Source: Bacteroidota bacterium
GTDB taxonomy: Bacteria; Bacteroidota; Bacteroidia; UKL13-3
NCBI GenBank assembly: GCA_027488905.1
Contig: JAIYAT010000007.1
Coordinates: 248,001-312,000 of the forward strand
Length of the DNA: 64,000 nt
Direction: 5' to 3'
The first letter of the stretch is position 1. Each line of letters opens with the position of its first letter. Both the position numbers and the translations under genes were made by a program. A model generated the notes under the pieces. That model was not told where the DNA came from and did not search any database. It was given only the letters and a program-made list of their open reading frames with translations. This document shows, piece after piece, positions 40,593-56,984 of the stretch.

Positions 40593-41276
40593 CTAAAGCT
40601 GCTTTAGTTTTTCTAGCGCTTCTTTCAAAGATTCGTAATCGGTATAACCATTAGATAAGGCATACCATTTCCCATTTTTAATGGCTAAAACTGCTGGAAA
40701 TCCATTTACTCCTAAGGCATTCACATGCTTAAAACTATTGAAAGCGCGTGTCTTCATTTCTTCCGATTTCAATAAAGTTAAAAATTGGTCGGGGTTGAAC
40801 CCAAACTGTTTGGCTAAACTTACATAAACAGTATCCTCTCTTAAATCTAAGCCATCAACATAATATTTAGCTTGCAGAGCGGATGCAAATGGAATAGCTA
40901 GTTTTAAGTTTAGTTCTTTACAGACTTCAATGGCAATTGAAGGAATAACAGAGCTGCTATAGATGGATTTTGTTTTAAGCTGATCCAAATAGGGTTTGCC
41001 AAACTTTACACCAGTTAGTTTTTCTAACCTTGGATATGCTCCTAAAATATAATCTGCAAAGTCGCCAATTGGGCCTTCTCTTTCACCTACAACCATGCCT
41101 CCGCTAAGAATGTCAAAATAAAAAGTTTCATCATTTTCATGAGCAACTTTTTTAATTACTTCAGAAAATCCAAAACACCAACCACACATTGGGTCAAACA
41201 CATAAACTATGGTATCTTTTGCGCTACTTGTCATACAAAATAAAGAAAGAAGTAAACCGAATAAAAGTTTTTTCAT
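40593..41276 (-). CDS. DsbA/FrnE-like thioredoxin-fold protein, exported
   Basis: 227 residues with a signal peptide (about 1-19). Active-site CGWC at Cys31-Cys34 in VFDPMCGWCFG. A helical insert and the cis-Pro region (VNGFPAVLAI) are typical of DsbA-type oxidoreductases. Expected role: forming or exchanging disulfides in the periplasm, or a dehydrogenase-like FrnE role. It is downstream of a small membrane protein and a response regulator on the same strand. Confidence 0.85.
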   Translation of the reverse strand: MKKLLFGLLLSLFCMTSSAKDTIVYVFDPMCGWCFGFSEVIKKVAHENDETFYFDILSGGMVVGEREGPIGDFADYILGAYPRLEKLTGVKFGKPYLDQLKTKSIYSSSVIPSIAIEVCKELNLKLAIPFASALQAKYYVDGLDLREDTVYVSLAKQFGFNPDQFLTLLKSEEMKTRAFNSFKHVNALGVNGFPAVLAIKNGKWYALSNGYTDYESLKEALEKLKQL

Positions 41277-47106: not shown

Positions 47107-47834
47107 GTTGGTTTTGGTTGTTGTTATTGCCTGTTGGTCCACTGATAGGAACTTATTTAGGGGTTAAAGGCTCTAAGAAAGTGGGAAGTAATTTAGCGTG
47201 GTTTTTATCTTTTGCTGGCGCTTACTTATTAGGAATTACAATTTTAAATTTAATTCCAGAAGTGTTTAGGGTATTTGACCCCTTTAAAGGTGCATTAATG
47301 CTGCTAGGTTTCTTTTTTCAAATATTTTTGGAAAGGTTTTCCGAAGGTGTTGAACATGGGCATGTACATTCTCATAATCATTTAAAGCACAAGGTTTTGC
47401 CAATCGGTGTGGTGTTATCAATGAGCCTTCATTCACTATCAGAAGGCGTGCCTTTAGGCGCTTTGTGGTTGGAAGGCAGTTCACATTTCTTTCCTTTTTT
47501 ATTCGGCATTATGATACATGAAGTACCTGCGGCATTTGCCTTATTAGCTTTATTAAAAGGTTTGAACCTACGTGAGAGTATTCTTGTTCGAACAGGTTTT
47601 GTATATTCTTTAATGTCTTTCGCTGGAGCCTTACTTAGTATATTCTTGGAATCGAGCATTCCAGCCGAGTTTTTCGAATATTTTATGGCCTTTGTAATTG
47701 GAACATTTTTGCATATTTCAACTACCATTTTATTTGAAAACAGCGAACACCATATTTTCAATAAGAAAAAGCTAACAGCAGTTTTTGTTGGAATTTCGCT
47801 TGCCTTATTGATAAGTTTAATGCACGCGCACTAA
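47103..47834 (+). CDS. ZIP-family metal transporter
   Basis: 243 residues with about seven to eight transmembrane segments. The ZIP metal-binding motifs are HSLSEGVPLGAL and HEVPAAFALLALL; the variable loop is His-rich (HGHVHSHNH), as in many zinc/iron ZIPs. It should move zinc or iron into the cytoplasm. The stop overlaps the stop of the convergent DCC gene (CTAA). The dispersed word at 47559 encodes GLNL in a loop near the second motif. Confidence 0.9.
   Translation: MSWFWLLLLPVGPLIGTYLGVKGSKKVGSNLAWFLSFAGAYLLGITILNLIPEVFRVFDPFKGALMLLGFFFQIFLERFSEGVEHGHVHSHNHLKHKVLPIGVVLSMSLHSLSEGVPLGALWLEGSSHFFPFLFGIMIHEVPAAFALLALLKGLNLRESILVRTGFVYSLMSFAGALLSIFLESSIPAEFFEYFMAFVIGTFLHISTTILFENSEHHIFNKKKLTAVFVGISLALLISLMHAH
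47559..47568 (+). repeat. GGTTTGAACC dispersed word, copy 13
   Basis: Exact, in the ZIP transporter gene, encoding Gly-Leu-Asn then Leu. Flanks AA and TA, so the extended flank is not conserved here. Confidence 0.9.
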
Positions 47835-48235
47835 AGAAACTTCCCTTTATATTTTGCTGGCGGGATTGGACAACTTTCATATTTTCCAAACCAACGGTAT
47901 CTATTTGCTGCTACCCAAAGATAGATTTTTCGACGCATTGATTTCGGTAAGATTTTGCCAATCAGGAGTAACCTGGCTGGAAAACCTAATAAATCTGCAA
48001 TTCTAAAAGCAGCGTCATCATAAACGAAAGCTTGATTTTTGTCGATAAAAACAATTGAATCTATTTCAGCATCAATTTGGTTCAAACCGATATAGTATTG
48101 ACCAATTTTAGATTGAAGTGCCGCGAAATGAAATTGATTTTTACGATCTAGTTTTAAAATGATTTTAACAAAGCCATTGCAAAGAGCACAATGTCCATCA
48201 TATAAAACTAAGGATAAGTGACTAGAGGCTTGCAT
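47831..48235 (-). CDS. DCC-family thiol-disulfide oxidoreductase-like protein (DUF393)
   Basis: 134 residues. The DCC signature DGHCALCN near the start and the CPIPP tail place it in DUF393. Family members are proposed redox proteins; substrate unknown. It is last in the cox operon and overlaps the DUF983 gene by 14 nt, so a role in oxidase biogenesis or copper/thiol chemistry is plausible by context. The dispersed word at 48079 encodes GLNQ. Confidence 0.85.
   Translation of the reverse strand: MQASSHLSLVLYDGHCALCNGFVKIILKLDRKNQFHFAALQSKIGQYYIGLNQIDAEIDSIVFIDKNQAFVYDDAAFRIADLLGFPARLLLIGKILPKSMRRKIYLWVAANRYRWFGKYESCPIPPAKYKGKFL
48079..48088 (-). repeat. GGTTTGAACC dispersed word, copy 14
   Basis: Exact; minus-strand context TCGGTTTGAACCAAAT, encoding Gly-Leu-Asn-Gln in the DCC protein gene. 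Confidence 0.9.
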
Positions 48236-48632
48236 TCTTTTTAGCCAAATCTGGGTTGAACCTAATTGGACTAAATAAATAAATCATAATTACTCTGGAA
48301 AAGCGATAGGAGAGGGGTGCAAAAAGAATAAAGCTTGAAATAATTGGGATGATATAAGTCCAGAAATCAGCTTTTCCATTGCTTAACAATAAAATAGCAC
48401 CGCCAATAATTAACATGAGTGCCACTGAAAAAGCATAACTCACATACATTGCTCCCCAAAAAAAGCCGGGTTCTATTTCAAATTTTAGTTTACAAACTGG
48501 GCATATGGCTTCCATATTGGTAAAGTTTTTTAAGTCGTAAAATGGATGAGTAAACATTTTACCACTTTGGCATTGAGGACATTTACACTTCAAAAGGGCC
48601 ATTCCTTTGGAAGGTTCATACAAATCGCACAT
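48222..48632 (-). CDS. DUF983 membrane protein with two CxxC motifs
   Basis: 136 residues. Zinc-ribbon-like CKCPQCQSG near the N-terminus and CPVC at about 44-47, followed by PGFFWGAMYVSYAF and two hydrophobic segments (about 60-82 and 89-113). This is the DUF983 pattern. In this phylum it is often beside cox genes; a copper or heme delivery role is inference only. Five nt after the upstream gene. Confidence 0.82.
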   Translation of the reverse strand: MCDLYEPSKGMALLKCKCPQCQSGKMFTHPFYDLKNFTNMEAICPVCKLKFEIEPGFFWGAMYVSYAFSVALMLIIGGAILLLSNGKADFWTYIIPIISSFILFAPLSYRFSRVIMIYLFSPIRFNPDLAKKNASL

Positions 48633-48637
48633 AGTAA

Positions 48638-48892
48638 TTATTGAGTGGTGAGTGAGTTTTTCTTTTCTTTATATTTTTTGAAATAAACAAAGGCAAAAGC
48701 TCCAGCAATTAAATAGGGGAGTGCAAGCAAATAAAGAATACCATCATTGATTGTATTTCCAACATTGGTACTCCCATTTTGTCTGGCCATTTCTAAATTG
48801 CTTTTACACATAGTACATTGTGCAGCAGCATCTGGAAGCAAGAATATTCCAATTACAAATAGAAGAGTAAGCGTTTTAGTTAATTTATTCAT
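48638..48892 (-). CDS. Small exported membrane protein with CTMC motif
   Basis: 84 residues. Signal peptide to about 24 (DAAAQ), then CTMCKSNLEMARQNG, and one transmembrane helix (about 51-70) with a Lys-rich cytoplasmic tail. The CxxC just outside the membrane could bind copper or do thiol exchange. Family unknown to me. It is 1 nt downstream of the DUF420 gene and within the cox operon, so it is a candidate oxidase assembly factor. Confidence 0.7.
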   Translation of the reverse strand: MNKLTKTLTLLFVIGIFLLPDAAAQCTMCKSNLEMARQNGSTNVGNTINDGILYLLALPYLIAGAFAFVYFKKYKEKKNSLTTQ

Positions 48893-48893
48893 G

Positions 48894-49445
48894 TTATACT
48901 GGGTAATATGGACTAATCATCAGGTATACAATTACGCCTGTAATGGTAACGTACAGCCAAATAGGGTAGGCAAACCTTACAATTTTCTTATGTAATTCAA
49001 CTTGAAGTTGTAAACCTCTATAAAAACTTAGCAATACCAAAGGCAAAACAATAGCCGCGAGTACGATATGAGTAATTAAAATAAAAAAATACAAGTTTGC
49101 ATTAGGAGCGTTTTCTGGATAATGTGTTTGTGGAGCAATCCAATGAAAAACCACATAGCTAATTAAGAATAAACTAGATAATCCAAAGGCAATAAGGTTT
49201 ACTGTTTTGTGAGCTGCAATATTTTTTTGCTTAATAAAGTATAGAGATATTAGCAAAAGAAGACTGCAAGTGCCATTGATAAATGCATTGAGCTTGGGAA
49301 GAAAATAAGTCCACGAAGGCAATTCTTCAGGTGCTGGTAATATTTTTCGATTTAAAATAATAACTGCAATAAAGATGACCACAGAAACGGTCATGATAAT
49401 GTTAAAAACGAGTTTGTCTTTATTTCCCTGGTTGGTGATACTCAT
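48894..49445 (-). CDS. DUF420 (CtaM-like) membrane protein
   Basis: 183 residues with five transmembrane segments. His-containing motifs (LPKLNAFINGTCSLLLL, FIKQKNIAAHKTVNL, SYVVFHWI, ILITHIVLA) match DUF420, the family of CtaM, which is required for heme-copper oxidase activity in Gram-positives. It overlaps the 3' end of the Sco gene by 26 nt. Probable role: oxidase maturation. Confidence 0.85.
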   Translation of the reverse strand: MSITNQGNKDKLVFNIIMTVSVVIFIAVIILNRKILPAPEELPSWTYFLPKLNAFINGTCSLLLLISLYFIKQKNIAAHKTVNLIAFGLSSLFLISYVVFHWIAPQTHYPENAPNANLYFFILITHIVLAAIVLPLVLLSFYRGLQLQVELHKKIVRFAYPIWLYVTITGVIVYLMISPYYPV

Positions 49446-50070
49446 ATAATAGAACTTTTATATCTTCTTCTAAATGTTTGATGTCGATATCGCTTCCGCT
49501 ATCATAGACACCTCTAATATGTTTAGATTTATCTATTAATATTAACTGTTGGCTGTGGTCAATTGTTTTGTCTTCAATAGAAACAGGTAGAAGCATACCT
49601 TGGCCAATATCAAAAACGCCATTTTTTCCTGCGTTTACAAAATGCCAAATCTTTGGATCAGCTTCAAATTTTTTGCTGTAATCAAATAATACTTGAGTAG
49701 AATCATTAGCAGGGTCAACGGTAAAAGACACAAATTTCACTTCTGCAAATTCTTTGAATCTATCATAAACCGTTTTTAGCCTTCTGTTCATTGAAGGACA
49801 AACATCTTTGCAAGAGGCAAAGAAAAAGTTAGCAACAAAAACGTTATTTGATAAGTCATTAGAATGAAGAGTATCTCCGCTTTGATCTATTCCCATAAAG
49901 TCAGGAACAGAATAGTAAATAGTGTCCTTTATTCCAATTCCATCAGGTGCAATTCTTTCACCTAAATAGCCAAGTTTTTTGAAATTTTGGCTACCTGCGT
50001 TTAGCATATAAAAAATAACAACCGGCACTACAAGTAGTCCGGTTGCTATAAAGAATCCTTTTTTCTTCAT
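49420..50070 (-). CDS. SCO1/SenC copper chaperone-like protein
   Basis: 216 residues from the ATG at 50070 (an upstream in-frame ATG at 50082 lies inside the previous gene). N-terminal membrane anchor (about 5-24), thioredoxin fold with copper-site CKDVC in FFFASCKDVCPSMN, and the distal His in DHSQQLI. Sco proteins load copper onto the CuA site of subunit II. It overlaps the subunit IV gene by one base (TAATG), so translation is coupled. Confidence 0.92.
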   Translation of the reverse strand: MKKKGFFIATGLLVVPVVIFYMLNAGSQNFKKLGYLGERIAPDGIGIKDTIYYSVPDFMGIDQSGDTLHSNDLSNNVFVANFFFASCKDVCPSMNRRLKTVYDRFKEFAEVKFVSFTVDPANDSTQVLFDYSKKFEADPKIWHFVNAGKNGVFDIGQGMLLPVSIEDKTIDHSQQLILIDKSKHIRGVYDSGSDIDIKHLEEDIKVLLYEYHQPGK

Positions 50071-50402
50071 TATTTGAGCCATCTCAAAACGTTAGTAAAA
50101 TCACCTTCTATTAACATAAGCGCTACAAAGAAAATGACAAAAACCATTGGCAATACGATTGTATACATAAGGGCTTTTCTTTCAAATTTCATATGCATGA
50201 AAACACCTACAATGTAATAGGCTTTAACTACACCTAAAATTATAAATACCCAATTCTTCCACATTGCATGCGTACTTAGCAAAACGAAATAAAGTACGAT
50301 ATCAACAACAGTAAAGCCTAATAGTATCCAGAAAGTTTTCCAGATTTGACTTTTCATATCCGAAGGTGTTTCGGTGTGTTCTAAATGTTCTGTATGTTCC
50401 AT
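50070..50402 (-). CDS. Cytochrome c oxidase subunit IV-like protein
   Basis: 110 residues. A His/Glu-rich N-terminus is followed by three transmembrane helices with VFMHMKFE after the second, the pattern of the COX4 prokaryotic family (caa3/cyoD type). Structural subunit of the oxidase. 19 nt after coxC. Confidence 0.88.
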   Translation of the reverse strand: MEHTEHLEHTETPSDMKSQIWKTFWILLGFTVVDIVLYFVLLSTHAMWKNWVFIILGVVKAYYIVGVFMHMKFERKALMYTIVLPMVFVIFFVALMLIEGDFTNVLRWLK

Positions 50403-50421: not shown

Positions 50422-51174
50422 TTATATTAGATAGAAAAAGGTGAAAACGAACACCCAAACTAGATCTACGAAATGCCAGTATAAACCAACTTTTTCAACC
50501 ATTTCATAGTGACCTCTTTTTTCATAGGTACCTGCAAGTACATTAAAGTAAATGATTACATTAAGCAGTACGCCAGAGAATACGTGGAATCCATGGAAGC
50601 CTGTTACAATAAAAAACAGTGCAGCAAAAGATGTTGGTCCAAATGGATTGCCATGTAAAGTTGCACCTTCACCAATAAAGGTTGTCCACTCCCAAGCTTG
50701 GCAACCCAAGAAAGCTGCTCCCCCAATAATGGTTAGGAACATATATTTTGAAACTTCATCTTTTGCCATTCGGTGACCAGCTTCAACAGCTAATACCATA
50801 GTAACAGAACTAAAGATGAGAATGAAAGTCATTAAACTTACAAAGAATAGTGGCAAATGAACACCATGAATAAATGGAAAGTGGTTAAATACCAATTCTG
50901 GTGAAGGCCAATGTTCTTTTACGAATAAACCTTTTTCTCCCATTTCTCTTACAAACTCATGACTCAAATGGTCAAAAGGTTTTACAATTGTGTTTCTGAT
51001 TGGCTCTAAAAATGAGTATCGGATAAATCCATACGCAATGAGCAGGGATGAAAAAGTAAAGGCATCAGAAAGCAGAAATATCCACATCATGAGCTTTCCA
51101 TAGCTCACACTGAAAGGTGATTTTCCCCCACCCCATGTGAATTTAGTGTTTGTTGTTAAGGTGTTTGTAGCCAT
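50422..51174 (-). CDS. coxC: Cytochrome c oxidase subunit III
   Basis: 250 residues with about six transmembrane helices. Family features: MMWIFLLSDAFTFSSLL, EAGHRMAK, GATLHGNPFGPTSFAALFFIVTGFHGFHVFSGV and YWHFVDLVWVFVF. It stabilises subunit I and proton uptake. It follows a second subunit-III-like gene 26 nt upstream, so the operon has two paralogues. Confidence 0.93.
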   Translation of the reverse strand: MATNTLTTNTKFTWGGGKSPFSVSYGKLMMWIFLLSDAFTFSSLLIAYGFIRYSFLEPIRNTIVKPFDHLSHEFVREMGEKGLFVKEHWPSPELVFNHFPFIHGVHLPLFFVSLMTFILIFSSVTMVLAVEAGHRMAKDEVSKYMFLTIIGGAAFLGCQAWEWTTFIGEGATLHGNPFGPTSFAALFFIVTGFHGFHVFSGVLLNVIIYFNVLAGTYEKRGHYEMVEKVGLYWHFVDLVWVFVFTFFYLI

Positions 51175-51199
51175 TGTTCTATTATGCTTGTTAGGTTAA

Positions 51200-51775
51200 T
51201 TAGCGATATAAGTATAGAAATAAATATAAATAAATCCAAAGAATGCCAATAAAATGCCAATATGTAAGGCACATATTTAAATAAAGCTGAAAGGTATTTG
51301 GTAGCGTTTTCATGAAGGATTGACCCCACATAATAAGAAGAAAAACTAAGCCTCCTATAACGTGTGCAAGATGAAGACCTGAAATTACATAAACAAATGA
51401 ATTGGAAGGATTAGAAAATGCGAAAAATACATTGTTAGCAATTAATTGCTGGTAAGCAAAAAATTGCCCAAGGCAGAAAGCTAAACCTAGGGCTACTGTT
51501 AGTCCAAGAAATATTTTTGTTTTCTCTTTTTGTTCTTTTTTTGCGCTCATGTAGGCCAATTGCATAAACAAAGATGAAAAAACAGCAATGATACTGTTCA
51601 CCATAAATAGTGATGGAAGTTCAAAAACTTCCCAATTACCTTCACCCCTTCTAACGATGTAAGCTGAGGTAAACCCAGCAAATAGCATTATACTGGCCAC
51701 AATTAATAACCATAACACGAATTTCTTCGGGTTAATCACATAATTTTCTTCTTCTTTTTTATATACTGTCTGCAT
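51200..51775 (-). CDS. Cytochrome c oxidase subunit III-like protein (paralogue)
   Basis: 191 residues from the ATG at 51775 (the upstream codon at 51838 overlaps ctaB). Heme-copper oxidase subunit III fold with five transmembrane helices: LWLLIVASIMLFAGFTSAYIVRR, VYVISGLHLAHVIGGLVFLL and LTYWHFIGILWIYLY. The start lies 4 nt after the ctaB stop. Shorter than the following coxC. Confidence 0.9.
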   Translation of the reverse strand: MQTVYKKEEENYVINPKKFVLWLLIVASIMLFAGFTSAYIVRRGEGNWEVFELPSLFMVNSIIAVFSSLFMQLAYMSAKKEQKEKTKIFLGLTVALGLAFCLGQFFAYQQLIANNVFFAFSNPSNSFVYVISGLHLAHVIGGLVFLLIMWGQSFMKTLPNTFQLYLNMCLTYWHFIGILWIYLYLFLYLYR

Positions 51776-51779
51776 GTTT

Positions 51780-52691
51780 TTAAATTTTGTCAAATAAATA
51801 AGCGAGTTGAACAAGCGGAAGGTATACAAAAGATGCAAACATTAGTTTTTTTGCGTCTTTGGTTTCACAGGTTTTCAAAAGTCTATAGGAATAGTAGCTA
51901 AGCATCAAACCTCCTAATATTCCAACAATACCAGAAGTAATTCCAGTAATGCCGTATTGCATGGGTAACATTCCTAATGGAATTAATGCAAGACTAAAAA
52001 TCAAGGTTTGAAGAGCTGTCCCTTTGTCTCTTCCTGGTGTAGAAGGTAACATTTTAAATCCAGCTCTTTTATAATCGTCATCTAGTATCCACGCGATGCT
52101 CCAGAAATGCGGAAATTGCCAGAAAAACTGAACTGCAAACAAAATGATTGCAGGGGTATCAATTCTACCACTGTAGGCAACCCAACCTAACATGGTTGGT
52201 ATTGCTCCCGGGAATGCACCTACAAATACAGAAACAGGGGAAACTCTTTTTAATGGCGTATAAATAAAAGCATAACTAATCAAAGCGAAAAATGCAAGCC
52301 AACCAGAGGCAGCATTTAAGTAAAATGAAATTAAGAAAACACCTGTTAATCCCATTATCATGCTGATAATTGATGCTTCCATTACACTCATTCGATTGGT
52401 AGCAATTGGTCTGTTTGCCGTTCTTACCATGAGTTTGTCATAGTCTTTTTCAATTATTTGGTTGATGGCATTGGAGGCTCCAGTAACTAAAAAACCACCT
52501 AATGTTAACATTGCCACTTCAAACCAATTAATGGCGCCCTGACTAGCAGTTAAGTAAGTAACTACCGATGAGAATACAACAAGAAAAGTAAGTCTAAATT
52601 TAACCAACTGGTTAAAATCGCTCACCTTCGACCTGAAGAAACTCATTTCTCCTTTAAGGTTATTTTCTATAACTGAAGTTTTAACTTCCAC
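51780..52691 (-). CDS. ctaB: Protoheme IX farnesyltransferase (heme O synthase)
   Basis: 303 residues with about nine transmembrane helices. UbiA-family motifs: NAINQIIEKDYDKLMVRTANRP and WQFPHFWSIAWILDDDYKRAGFKMLP. It converts heme B to heme O for the oxidase. Overlaps ctaA by 11 nt. Confidence 0.95.
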   Translation of the reverse strand: MEVKTSVIENNLKGEMSFFRSKVSDFNQLVKFRLTFLVVFSSVVTYLTASQGAINWFEVAMLTLGGFLVTGASNAINQIIEKDYDKLMVRTANRPIATNRMSVMEASIISMIMGLTGVFLISFYLNAASGWLAFFALISYAFIYTPLKRVSPVSVFVGAFPGAIPTMLGWVAYSGRIDTPAIILFAVQFFWQFPHFWSIAWILDDDYKRAGFKMLPSTPGRDKGTALQTLIFSLALIPLGMLPMQYGITGITSGIVGILGGLMLSYYSYRLLKTCETKDAKKLMFASFVYLPLVQLAYLFDKI

Positions 52692-53604
52692 TTTTTATGT
52701 TTTCTTCTTTGAATGTTGTTTTGCTAAAAGCTAGAATGAAAATAAATATTTGCAATCCAGCAGTTAGACTACCCAATGTTAAATGAATGCTTTGTGCATT
52801 CCCGGGAAAGCTAAAGTTAGCTAACACAGCTCCTGTAAATGTTTGGGTGCACATCATTAGGATTACTGCAAGGGATGCTTTATATAGAATGCTTTGACGC
52901 TCAAATGTTTGTTTGAACCTAGAATGAATGAAAATTGCCAATCCAATATTTATTAAACTCCAGCTTCTATGAAAATAAAATATCCAGTCCATTTCATCTA
53001 GCCAAAGGTCTCTGTTGTCAATTCTTTTAGCGATTTCATCAACTTCCTCTCTAACTTGTGTACCTAGTATGATTTGAACAAACATTACAAACATCATAAG
53101 CACAACCAATGGTTTAATCAAAGTATCTGGTTTAGCCATTGGAATTTCGAAATCCTGACTTGCAGTGATGGTGAAAATTAGCAATGCAACAATTACAAGT
53201 GCAATTAACATGTGAATGGTTACCATGTAAACCGCTAAATCACTTGAGACCACTTTAGCTCCTATCCATGCTTGAAATGCAACTAGAATAAATGACAATA
53301 AACATAGCCAGAATATTTTTTTATTGGCAGTTTTCAAGTACGGAAATGAAAAGATAACTGTCAAAAAAATGAAGATTCCAATAAGCACTCCAACAAGGCG
53401 ATTGTAATATTCTGTCCAAGTTTTAAAGGCATCAAAATCTGCTATTTCCTTTCCGGCAACTGCAAATTTGGTCTTGTAATCAGTTGGCAATTCACTGATG
53501 TCGGAAGGGGGAATCCATTGCCCAAAACATTTTGGCCAATCCGGACAGCCCATTCCGCTACCTGTGCTGCGTACTAATCCACCAACGAAAATGAGAAAGA
53601 ACAC
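52681..53604 (-). CDS. ctaA: Heme A synthase CtaA (start uncertain)
   Basis: Seven to eight transmembrane helices. The signature VRSTGSGMGCPDWPKCFGQWIPP with its Cys pair, and the heme-ligand histidines in the paired helices (HMLIALVIVAL, FHRSWSLINIG, SIHLTLGSL), support heme O to heme A oxidation. GTG at 53604 is the first recognised start, but it cuts the first helix short. In-frame codons upstream to 53685 encode NKVIELKKQIRFRRFGILTI, a normal CtaA N-terminus, without ATG, GTG or TTG. The real start may be a rare codon. It follows coxA by about 68 nt or less. Confidence 0.85.
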   Translation of the reverse strand: MFFLIFVGGLVRSTGSGMGCPDWPKCFGQWIPPSDISELPTDYKTKFAVAGKEIADFDAFKTWTEYYNRLVGVLIGIFIFLTVIFSFPYLKTANKKIFWLCLLSFILVAFQAWIGAKVVSSDLAVYMVTIHMLIALVIVALLIFTITASQDFEIPMAKPDTLIKPLVVLMMFVMFVQIILGTQVREEVDEIAKRIDNRDLWLDEMDWIFYFHRSWSLINIGLAIFIHSRFKQTFERQSILYKASLAVILMMCTQTFTGAVLANFSFPGNAQSIHLTLGSLTAGLQIFIFILAFSKTTFKEENIKSGS

Positions 53605-53672: not shown

Positions 53673-55520
53673 TTAGTGAGCGGCCTCAGCAGCCACTAAT
53701 GGTTCTACTGCCACTTCTGGTAATCCATTAGCTTCTTCCATAGGGTCAATTTGTCCTGCATCTGGTACATTTTGTGGAATGAAATCATCTTCAGCACCAG
53801 GTTTGCTGTAATCATATGCCCAACGGTAAACATGTGGAATTTCTCCAGGCCAGTTGCCATGCAAATGCTCAACAGGAGCAGTCCACTCTAAGGTGTTTGA
53901 ACTCCAAGGATTTTGAACAGCACGTTTACCTTTAAAAATACTATAAAAGAAATTCGCTAAAAAGAGTACTTGAGCCAAACCTCCTAAAAGAGCTGCGATA
54001 GTTATGAATTGGTTCATATCTACGAAGACATTGAATTGGTCGTATGCTGTATTAGCATAATACCTTCTAGGCACCCCGGCTAATCCCATAAAGTGCATTG
54101 GGAAAAATACACAATACGCTGAGATTAGGGTCAACCAAAAATGAATATGGCCAGCAGTTTCGTTCATCATTCTGCCAAACATTCTTGGATACCAATGATA
54201 AACGCCACTCATCATCCCAAAAATTGCTGCACTACCCATTACTAAGTGAAAATGAGCTACCACAAAATAAGTATCATGTAGATTAATGTCTAATGCTGCG
54301 TTTCCTAAGTAAATACCAGTTAAACCTCCAGAAATAAACAAAGAAACTAAACCTATTGCAAACATCATGGCTGGCGTAAGTTTTAAGTTTCCTTGCCAAA
54401 GTGTTGCCAAGTAGTTAAATGTTTTTACTGCAGAAGGAACTGCAATAATTAAGGTTCCCAACATAAATACTGAACCTAAGAATGGATTCATACCAGTTAT
54501 AAACATGTGGTGACCCCAAACGATAAAAGAAAGTATTCCAATAGCCAAGATTGAACCAATCATAGCGCGGTAACCAAAGATTGGCTTTCTAGAATTGGTT
54601 GCAATAACTTCTGAGGTAATACCTAATGCAGGTAATAAGATAATATATACTTCTGGATGTCCTAAGAACCAGAATAAATGTTGGAACAAAATTGGAGAGC
54701 CACCTGTGCGCTCGATGCCACCTGCAAATTCTGCAACAATTTCTGATAAGTAAAATGATGTTCCAAAACTTCTATCGAAAATTAAAAGTAGAGAACCTCC
54801 TAATAACACTGGGAATGATAATAACCCTAAAATAGCAGTAGTTATAAATGCCCAAATGGTTAATGGCATACGAGACATTTTCATTCCTTTTGTGCGCATA
54901 TTTAAAATTGTAGCGATATAATTGATACCACCTAACAAAGAAGAAGCTATAAATAACACCATAGCAACCAACCATAGTGTCATACCTGTTCCAGAACCTG
55001 GAATTGCTTTTGGTAGTGCAGATAATGGCGGATATACTGTCCAACCTGCAGAAGCTGGTCCACCATCTACGAATAATGACCAAAGTAATACTACTGATGA
55101 AGTAAAGAAAAACCAATATGAAAGCATATTCATAAAAGGTGATGCCATATCTCTTGCACCAACTTGTAAAGGAATTAACAAGTTAGAAAAAGTTCCACTT
55201 AATCCTGCAGTCAACACATAAAATACCATAATGGTACCATGGATTGTAATAAGTGCTAGGTAGAAATTAGGGTCAAGTTTACCATCTTTTCCCCAATGAC
55301 CAAGTATTCCTTCAAGGAAAGGGAATGTCATGTCGGGATAAGCCAACTGCAAACGGAAAATCAAAGACATTAACATACCAATGGTACCCATGATAATACC
55401 AGTGATGAGAAATTGCCTTGCAATCATTTTATGGTCCATGCTAAAAACATACTTTGTAATAAAGTTGTCTTCATGGTGCTCATGATCGTCGTGGCTGTGT
55501 GTCATGTTGTGATCGCTCAT
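53673..55520 (-). CDS. coxA: Cytochrome c oxidase subunit I
   Basis: 615 residues with about twelve transmembrane helices and a His-rich N-terminus (HSHDDHEHHED). Catalytic core: the CuB/Tyr motif HPEVYIILLPALG, HHMF, and the heme ligands in VVAHFHLVMGS. The active-site His-Tyr crosslink residues are conserved. It reduces oxygen to water and pumps protons. The long N-terminus and C-terminal extension are typical of the phylum. 36 nt after coxB. Confidence 0.97.
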   Translation of the reverse strand: MSDHNMTHSHDDHEHHEDNFITKYVFSMDHKMIARQFLITGIIMGTIGMLMSLIFRLQLAYPDMTFPFLEGILGHWGKDGKLDPNFYLALITIHGTIMVFYVLTAGLSGTFSNLLIPLQVGARDMASPFMNMLSYWFFFTSSVVLLWSLFVDGGPASAGWTVYPPLSALPKAIPGSGTGMTLWLVAMVLFIASSLLGGINYIATILNMRTKGMKMSRMPLTIWAFITTAILGLLSFPVLLGGSLLLIFDRSFGTSFYLSEIVAEFAGGIERTGGSPILFQHLFWFLGHPEVYIILLPALGITSEVIATNSRKPIFGYRAMIGSILAIGILSFIVWGHHMFITGMNPFLGSVFMLGTLIIAVPSAVKTFNYLATLWQGNLKLTPAMMFAIGLVSLFISGGLTGIYLGNAALDINLHDTYFVVAHFHLVMGSAAIFGMMSGVYHWYPRMFGRMMNETAGHIHFWLTLISAYCVFFPMHFMGLAGVPRRYYANTAYDQFNVFVDMNQFITIAALLGGLAQVLFLANFFYSIFKGKRAVQNPWSSNTLEWTAPVEHLHGNWPGEIPHVYRWAYDYSKPGAEDDFIPQNVPDAGQIDPMEEANGLPEVAVEPLVAAEAAH

Positions 55521-55556: not shown

Positions 55557-56984
55557 TTATTTAAGCGCAACTGCTGCTGAATTGCTTTTGCCAGAAACTA
55601 AAACTGGTTGAGATTTTAGCCATTTTTGGAAATCTTCTTTGGTATCTATAACCACTTTCATTTTCATACGGTAATGGGCTCCGCCGCATATTTTGTTACA
55701 TAAAAGGATGTAATCAAAAGTGGCATCTTTCTTTTTCTCTCTCATTTCCGAAGTAGTAACAGTAGGAGTAAAGTGAAAACGAGTTGGCAATCCAGGTACA
55801 ACATTCATTTGAGCCCTAAAATGTGGGAAATAAGCTGAGTGAATAACATCCTTTGCTCTGAAAGCAAATTCTACAGGTTGATTAACTTCTAAGTGTAATT
55901 CATTTACGATGATATCATCAAATGCATTAGCATCTGCTGTATCTACTCCTAAAGCATTAACTTTTCCTACTTGTCTAAAATCATGTTTACCAAGTTTATT
56001 GTCAGCACCAGCGTAGCGAGCGTTCCATCCAAATTGGTAAGCGAATATTTCAACATTTCTGGTGCTTGGTTCTGTTTTGGCGGTCATGTGACTCCAAGTA
56101 ATTAAACCACGAATAACTAATACGGTTAAAACAACTGCTGGAACTGCTGTCCACCATAATTCTAATTTATGGTTATCAGGATAGTAAAGTGCTTTTCTTT
56201 TGCCATCTGATTTATACTTAAATCCGTACCAGAATAATAATACTTGAGTGATGATAAAAACTACACCTGTAATAGCAAGCGTAATCATAAACATATTGTC
56301 ATATTCTACGCCATGCTCAGAAGCTGGGCCTTCATTGAAATAAGTTAGTTTTCCGTGAACCATGAATTCCCAAACAGTAGCACCCAAACCTACTACAAGA
56401 AATACTATCATTAAGATTGAATTGATAGAATTCCAATTTACAGCTGGTTTTCCTTGAATATCACTAATTCTATTAAGAATCAGGAAGACATATCTAATCA
56501 CACCTACTAAAAGAAGGCCGATTACAACTAGCAGCCAATTGATTGCGGATGAAAAATCATTGGAATTTCCTCCTCCTGCAGTAACTGTTGTTGGAATCTC
56601 TGCTATTTTAGCTGGCGCTGCTGTTTCGCTTTCAGCTTTTACATACGCAATGATTGATTTAATTTGATTGTCTGAAAGGTTTTCAAATGCAGTCATTGGA
56701 CTCTCATTGTTTTCTTTGTAAACCTGAACCGCAACGGCGTCGCCACTTGCGATTAGTTTTTGAGAATTTTTAATCCATTTTACCAACCAAGCTTCTTCTC
56801 TTCTTTTATGTACATCCTTTAAGGCTGGGCCAACCACTTTTTCATTGATGGCATGGCAAGAGGTACAATTTGCCTGAAAAAGCGTCTTTCCTTCTTCTGC
56901 TGATTGGGCAAAAAGGTTAGAAATCATAGAAAACGTTAGCGCTATTAATAAGGCAGTTTTCGGTAACAGTTTGAAAATCTTCAT
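55557..56984 (-). CDS. coxB: Cytochrome c oxidase subunit II with N-terminal cytochrome c domain
   Basis: 475 residues. Signal peptide to about 27, then a mono-heme cytochrome c domain: Cys40-Thr-Ser-Cys43-His44 and candidate axial Met97 (ESPMTAF). A linker leads to four transmembrane segments (about 150-170, 188-207, 231-254, 277-296). The CuA domain follows: His382, Cys429, Cys433, His437 and Met440 in CNKICGGAHYRM. Subunit II accepts electrons through CuA. In caa3 oxidases of Bacillus and Thermus the cytochrome c is at the C-terminus; here it is at the front. First gene of the cox operon. Confidence 0.94.
   Translation of the reverse strand: MKIFKLLPKTALLIALTFSMISNLFAQSAEEGKTLFQANCTSCHAINEKVVGPALKDVHKRREEAWLVKWIKNSQKLIASGDAVAVQVYKENNESPMTAFENLSDNQIKSIIAYVKAESETAAPAKIAEIPTTVTAGGGNSNDFSSAINWLLVVIGLLLVGVIRYVFLILNRISDIQGKPAVNWNSINSILMIVFLVVGLGATVWEFMVHGKLTYFNEGPASEHGVEYDNMFMITLAITGVVFIITQVLLFWYGFKYKSDGKRKALYYPDNHKLELWWTAVPAVVLTVLVIRGLITWSHMTAKTEPSTRNVEIFAYQFGWNARYAGADNKLGKHDFRQVGKVNALGVDTADANAFDDIIVNELHLEVNQPVEFAFRAKDVIHSAYFPHFRAQMNVVPGLPTRFHFTPTVTTSEMREKKKDATFDYILLCNKICGGAHYRMKMKVVIDTKEDFQKWLKSQPVLVSGKSNSAAVALK

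Follow-up and report, generated by a model that had tools for sequence, protein, structure and literature searches.

How is the CuB centre of a cytochrome oxidase loaded with copper when both of the factors known for this step are missing? The question is raised by a caa3-type oxidase operon on the minus strand of a 64,000-nt stretch of DNA from a Bacteroidota bacterium (class Bacteroidia, lineage UKL13-3; assembly GCA_027488905.1, contig JAIYAT010000007.1, positions 248,001 to 312,000), hereafter the window, to which all coordinates refer. It is raised in particular by an 84-residue protein near the end of this operon, here called CTMC. Either Cox11 or Caa3_CtaG seems to be required for CuB, as worded in the part of a review available to us (PMC9145763). 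Cox11 occurs in none of 198 Bacteroidia genomes and Caa3_CtaG in a single one, G110 (genomes, loci and families carry our own handles). With both CuB factors missing or nearly so, Bacteroidia must use something else, or nothing, and the candidates that the operon offers for the role are CTMC and the product of the gene preceding it, the CtaM-type protein DUF420. CTMC gives the question of CuB loading without Cox11 and Caa3_CtaG a concrete, deletable gene, and Flavobacterium johnsoniae combines working genetics with a predicted back-up bd oxidase, according to the accessible text of PMC8552683. The sole Caa3_CtaG of the class sample sits in a second cox locus of canonical span (G110:C1:189584-193167), and the two look as if they were acquired together.

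CTMC is conserved across the sampled Bacteroidota and is tied to one oxidase type, the long type. Within Bacteroidia, tblastn finds it in 175 of 198 genomes; DUF420 is present in 181 and COX1 in 191, and the Pfam model for COX2, which does not detect CoxB of the window, was left out of the co-occurrence counts. The 17 genomes that lack DUF420 all lack a CTMC match too. A sequence-only reading of this DNA had proposed a link to oxidase assembly and had named occurrence in lineages without a heme-copper oxidase as one of two observations that would speak against it. Such occurrence was looked for and not seen, either in the six Bacteroidia genomes without COX1 or in the 11 COX1-negative genomes of a phylum-wide sample; a seventh COX1-negative Bacteroidia genome (G190) carries CTMC, but its contig end falls inside COX1 (L152) and it is hence excluded. 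Of the 247 genomes in the phylum sample 236 have COX1, among them all 68 that are CTMC-positive; this last number is slightly too high, since the hit in G377 (L149) and the second hit in G293 (L155) are unrelated proteins and those in G227 and G412 are unchecked. A strongly reduced Bacteroidia genome of 0.49 Mb (G025, L160) keeps CoxB, CoxA, COX3, COX4, DUF420 and CTMC together; a Sco gene lies ∼8 kb from this retained set.

The tie to one oxidase type comes from genomes outside Bacteroidia. The first CTMC profile (A1) was built from Bacteroidia alone, with only the best candidates per genome scored; it detected few relatives outside the class, and diverged members were missed. Twenty non-Bacteroidia genomes were then looked at for oxidase type: by the span of their COX1 match, nine are of the long type (1413–1485 nt) and eleven of the canonical type (1320–1332 nt). 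The expectation that the nine long-type genomes, all A1-negative, hold a diverged CTMC preceded retrieval, though it was written down only afterwards. All nine have a CxxC protein with a signal peptide and a single helix after Sco or DUF420, and the eleven canonical-type cox regions contain no CTMC (0/11) and likewise no DUF420 (0/11), both counted within the region only. A widened profile took in relatives from family f80 (five of the nine test genomes) and none from f78 (the other four). In all, eighteen CTMC loci outside Bacteroidia were collected (L141–L148, L150 and L163–L171), nine of them chosen for their CTMC hit and nine being the test. Six of these loci (L141–L143 and L163–L165) have no DUF420. 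Outside Bacteroidia, the oxidase is thus tracked better by CTMC than by DUF420, whereas inside the class the two genes have nearly the same frequency, with DUF420 slightly ahead. As for the 23 CTMC-negative Bacteroidia genomes, three of which are taken to be G161, G170 and G172 from their absence among the listed positives, eight have a CTMC-positive congener (G031, G052, G089, G102, G120, G130, G152 and G153), so that gaps in the assemblies are the likely cause; among the remainder, the majority have no COX1, or a COX1 that scores unlike the long type.

The gene neighbourhood is conserved as well, its lack of conservation being the other observation that the sequence-only reading had named against itself; together with the oxidase tie this supports the proposed link to oxidase assembly. 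SCO, DUF420 and CTMC recur as neighbours across relatives. Among 80 named loci, which are the best 80 of 570 confirmed CTMC matches and lean towards close relatives, 77 have room upstream, and in 68 of these DUF420 precedes CTMC by no more than 400 nt. A broader count over 130 Bacteroidia genomes, based on 150 CTMC and 149 DUF420 places among the matches listed, finds the two genes adjacent in 92, within 8 kb in seven, farther apart on the same contig in four (always >15 kb) and on different contigs in 27, some of which are perhaps assembly breaks only. Fisher tests on these counts ignore shared ancestry and are given no weight. That CTMC is kept though not beside DUF420 indicates a gene often retained after leaving the operon. 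DUF983, found in 135 of 198 Bacteroidia genomes, and DCC, with relatives in nine of the named loci (contig ends truncate some of the 80), are looser members of the set than DUF420 and CTMC.

What kind of protein is CTMC? Its 84 residues comprise a predicted signal peptide (∼1–24), a mature N-terminus reading QC-x-M-C, a short helix, one predicted membrane helix (∼50–70) and a basic tail; signal peptide and topology were judged by eye and from hydropathy, and the hydropathy plot has one signal-peptide-like and one membrane segment. The two cysteines of the CxxC motif, C26 and C29, are invariant in 103 of 103 relatives, Met precedes the second Cys in 85 and Pro59 is kept in 99. An AlphaFold2 model places helices at 3–18, 27–38 and 44–83, with a mean predicted local distance difference test score (pLDDT) of 78. 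The Cys pair most likely sits at the mature N-terminus on the periplasmic side, as far as this modelled layout goes. The motif is not a c-type heme site CxxCH, the residue after the second Cys being K, R, T, A, S or N in all 103 relatives. The lipobox consensus has G, A or S before the Cys; the window protein has Gln there, as do 88 of 103 relatives, and the 15 with Ala or Ser may still be lipoproteins. CTMC scores below every Pfam and NCBIfam cut-off, which agrees with its earlier description as the least known of the four genes after Sco; across 63 members, even a threshold of E 0.1 gives no Pfam family that is shared by more than 7. PF04442 (Cox11_CtaG) is absent from the CTMC matches up to E 1, and also from the 25 families shown for the 63 members. 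A search of plasmids with one CTMC relative gave no match. No paper on the protein was found in the open-licence literature, where it can be searched for only without a protein name.

The operon runs in the order CoxB, CoxA, CtaA, CtaB, COX3a, COX3b, COX4, Sco, DUF420, CTMC, DUF983 and DCC, as follows:

55557 to 56984, minus strand: CoxB (subunit II), which has a cytochrome c domain at its N-terminus as well as CuA ligands (open reading frame, ORF; matches in the PDB)
53673 to 55520, minus strand: CoxA, subunit I of the long Bacteroidota type (the genome's best PF00115 match, E 2.0e-141)
52681 to 53604, minus strand: CtaA-like heme A synthase (ORF; assigned by eye from sequence and operon position)
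51780 to 52691, minus strand: CtaB, heme O synthase of the UbiA family (PF01040)
51200 to 51838, minus strand: COX3a, shorter copy of oxidase subunit III (PF00510)
50422 to 51174, minus strand: COX3b, longer copy of oxidase subunit III (PF00510)
50070 to 50402, minus strand: oxidase subunit IV, COX4_pro (PF03626)
49420 to 50082, minus strand: Sco (SCO1/SenC), with CxxxC and His copper ligands (PF02630, E 3.1e-18)
48894 to 49445, minus strand: DUF420, a CtaM/YozB-type oxidase assembly protein by its match, 183 residues (PF04238, 141.3 bits against a cut-off of 30.5, E 2.8e-41)
48638 to 48892, minus strand: CTMC, 84 residues (ORF; no curated family)
48222 to 48632, minus strand: DUF983 membrane protein, 136 residues (PF06170, 24.1 bits against a cut-off of 22.6, marginal, E 4.5e-5)
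47831 to 48235, minus strand: DCC1-like thiol-disulfide oxidoreductase, 134 residues, with a CALC motif (PF04134, 83.4 bits against a cut-off of 27.8, E 3.5e-23)

All four ORFs described earlier are in place straight downstream of Sco, and the recurrence of CTMC and of its neighbours in relatives speaks against a chance ORF. Their packing, given as 1-nt gaps or overlaps, is as described for Sco/DUF420 (26-nt overlap), DUF420/CTMC (1-nt gap) and DUF983/DCC (14-nt overlap) and not for CTMC/DUF983, which are separated by 5 nt. CxxC motifs are carried by three of the four, as had been noted: C26–C29 in CTMC, C18–C21 and C44–C47 in DUF983, and C16–C19 in DCC. To call all four poorly known was an overstatement, since DUF420 corresponds to CtaM, an assembly factor established by mutants, and curated Pfam families exist for both DUF983 and DCC. 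The block is best explained as the part of a Bacteroidota-type caa3 operon, at its end, that serves oxidase assembly. In DUF983 the four cysteines form a zinc-ribbon-like N-terminus (CxxC...CxxC), present in 46 of 46 aligned sequences and presumably on the cytoplasmic side; the family is named among COX-operon proteins in the available part of PMC4013037, and in a set of 14 control genomes the Pfam model gives a match in Caulobacter. In DCC, C16 and C19 are kept in 10 of 10 aligned sequences, and no signal peptide is seen by eye. The copper ligands further upstream are largely kept: C429, C433, H437 and M440 of CoxB in 48 of 54 aligned sequences, and C91 and C95 (66/71) and H176 (65/71) of Sco. 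CtaA-like relatives occur in 45 of the 80 named loci. For COX3a, the ATG at 51781 is a likelier start than the listed TTG, and the ATG version was used for profiles.

Several further observations concern the operon and its surroundings. The cytochrome c domain of CoxB has its best solved match in subunit A of alternative complex III (ACIII; 6btm_A, E 1.7e-27), with the heme motif in 20 of 54 aligned sequences; inspection by eye found no ACIII genes just upstream of CoxB in the window. COX3a and COX3b, side by side at 50422–51838, are clearly related (hhalign score 202) and of unequal length. A ZIP-family metal transporter gene (PF02535; 47103–47834, plus strand) is convergent with DCC, whose end it overlaps by 4 nt, and has relatives in 4 of the 80 named loci. 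At 40593–41276, on the minus strand, lies a secreted-looking CGWC protein, by eye probably DsbA-like. Scans for promoters and terminators found hardly more sites than chance would give, with no clear excess (39 promoter-like, 37.0 expected; 8 terminator-like, 5.9 expected).

The reading that we favour, held tentatively and at somewhat less than an even chance, is that CTMC is a factor dedicated to the assembly of this oxidase type, one that is anchored in the membrane, carries a periplasmic dithiol and most likely passes on Cu(I), with CuB as the likely target. Sco would load CuA, as is established for its family, and CtaM/DUF420 would act late on subunit I or its copper supply, a stage that we infer from the Bacillus and Staphylococcus mutants. 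CTMC, exported by its predicted signal peptide and held by a single predicted helix, would present its Cys-x-Met-Cys to the periplasm, where it may bind Cu(I) and hand it to the oxidase, most likely for CuB. Several observations weigh against this proposal. One genome (G018, 84% complete) has a long-type oxidase and neither CTMC nor DUF420, with no CTMC-positive congener in the sample. Six genomes have a DUF420 match and no CTMC match (G031, G089 with a sub-cut-off DUF420, G102, G120, G130 and G161), and in G031 and G102 no CTMC is seen beside DUF420. The cox regions retrieved from eight CTMC-negative genomes hold no CTMC, a weak test in that six of these regions have CoxB and CoxA without the Sco end. 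The motif Met is missing in 18 of 103 relatives, so that a plain dithiol fits as well as a Cu(I) site, and the model is of low confidence around the cysteines (pLDDT 57 for residues 21–30 and 68 for 31–40). Caa3_CtaG, finally, is over cut-off in none of 80 non-Bacteroidia Bacteroidota genomes, ∼60 of them without CTMC in the profile search or in the retrieved regions. The absence of CtaG does not pair with the presence of CTMC, which makes an argument from replacement weak: a CTMC that replaced Caa3_CtaG would leave CtaG in CTMC-negative, oxidase-bearing Bacteroidota, and the argument was dropped.

The main rival is a small structural role, in which CTMC belongs as a small accessory subunit to the mature oxidase, or to the supercomplex that this forms with ACIII, and the cysteines form a structural disulfide. 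This is unlikely, though the chance is a real one: CTMC has a single membrane helix like other single-helix oxidase subunits, directly follows COX4 in L141, L142 and L143, and is tied to one oxidase type. Its usual place, however, is after Sco and CtaM and not among the subunits, and in 38 of the 130 Bacteroidia genomes it is not adjacent to DUF420. No solved chain matches it better than E 0.43, and that one is an unrelated RING protein; this is hardly a test, since no Bacteroidota caa3 was recognized among the CoxB-matching chains. A copper-free alternative makes CTMC a reductant of thiols or a disulfide relay, through which the cysteines of Sco and CoxB would stay reduced for copper loading. 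The invariant CxxC, placed where a predicted helix begins, the adjacent Sco with its CxxxC and the presence in the same operon of DCC, from a thiol-disulfide oxidoreductase family, all suit such a relay; yet the CTMC model has no thioredoxin fold, and DCC, lacking a visible signal peptide, is expected on the other side of the membrane and occurs in just nine of the named loci, all of which leaves the relay improbable. A much slighter chance is given to CTMC as a partner of CtaM only, receiving copper that CtaM exports. DUF420 directly upstream in most named loci, the absence of CTMC from every Bacteroidia genome without DUF420, and the proposal, in the accessible text of PMC13344008, that CtaM exports copper to Sco speak for it; the cox loci that have CTMC and no DUF420 (L045, L086, L141–L143 and L163–L165, counted at the locus only) speak against it. 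The assembly-factor reading also has a bolder form, in which CTMC is the first member of a new chaperone family, tethered to the membrane and loading Cu(I) into CuB of the Bacteroidota-type caa3 oxidase in the way Cox11 does elsewhere, and CtaM is a copy of subunit III turned assembly placeholder. CtaM would then hold subunit I open until copper is inserted, after which the true subunit III would replace it. We regard this combination as quite improbable.

Part of that bolder form can be judged from CtaM itself. By its profile match, the DUF420 protein of the window is a member of the CtaM/YozB family, as are all 57 members of its alignment (A2), each of which matches PF04238. Mutants place CtaM in oxidase assembly: Staphylococcus requires it for aa3, Bacillus for both aa3 and caa3 (PMC4958251, PMC9145763), and a proposal of 2026 makes it a copper exporter feeding Sco (PMC13344008), all as given in the available parts of these papers. 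DUF420 has no CxxC; His79, His126 and His152 are invariant across A2 and His101 is nearly so. A plasmid search with it gave matches in Listeria only (46–47% identity over 72% of the length). Its model has five helices (mean pLDDT 91.7), and the first 25 rows of a Foldseek search are oxidase entries at E 0.05 or worse, with chains that we take to be subunit III from their letters and lengths and, for 2yev_A, from the aligned range. Structural alignment with VIA-align gave Z 8.8–11.5 for these presumed subunit III chains, which come from many species; helical bundles can reach such values by chance, and designed ones go up to 11.8. In profile comparison by hhalign against the operon's own COX3a, DUF420 scores 35.4 with 57 sequences and 43.3 with 129 (P 3.1e-6, 142 columns), whereas eight other operon families reach at most 26.2, nine reversed profiles at most 21.9 and twelve comparisons with six other membrane families at most 21.5. 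COX3b, a clear relative of COX3a and one of the eight, scores only 22.4. Against a relation to subunit III stand weak likenesses to Frag1 in 24 of 57 members (best E 2.2e-8; sub-cut-off in the window protein) and to DUF2306 in 12 of 57 (best 1.2e-7). The A2 profile, moreover, finds no solved chain, COX3 included, at E up to 10, and Pfam COX3 is outside the 25 most-matched families shown for the 57 members. For a shared descent of CtaM/DUF420 and oxidase subunit III we see somewhat less than an even chance. In the open-licence literature, one paper mentions DUF420 as well as subunit III, and its available text draws no link between the two.

Another origin, with DUF420 as a relative of heme A synthase, has been proposed (PMC8239418) and disputed (PMC12808453), as seen in the accessible parts of both papers. 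The score against the CtaA profile, 26.2 over 32 columns, is weak, and this candidate was set aside. No heme A synthase entry was recognized in the listed DUF420 fold rows, which does not by itself exclude the relation.

How do these proteins compare with known systems? The function proposed for CTMC is like that of PCuAC and Cox17, copper being carried to the oxidase outside the cytoplasm. The copper site of Cox17 is CCxC. PCuAC is soluble with His/Met sites (PMC9145763, available part), whereas CTMC appears membrane-anchored with a CxxC. The window DUF420 belongs to the same family as the CtaM/YozB proteins of B. subtilis and S. aureus and has its place in the operon of an aa3-type oxidase; it is of the kind usually followed by CTMC, and the accessible portions of the Bacillus and Staphylococcus CtaM papers (PMC4958251, PMC9145763) mention no CTMC-like partner. 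Caa3_CtaG (PF09678) is a caa3 oxidase assembly protein tentatively assigned to CuB. It is unlike CTMC in having seven predicted membrane segments in B. subtilis (PMC9145763, in the part available) and gives no sequence match. Cox11 differs from CTMC in its motif, CxC instead of CxxC. It also has a folded outer domain, where CTMC has only ∼25 residues outside. If the assembly-factor reading holds, CTMC would nevertheless resemble Cox11_CtaG as described in the available text of PMC9145763, both being small single-helix proteins with an outward-facing Cys pair that act at the copper-loading stage.

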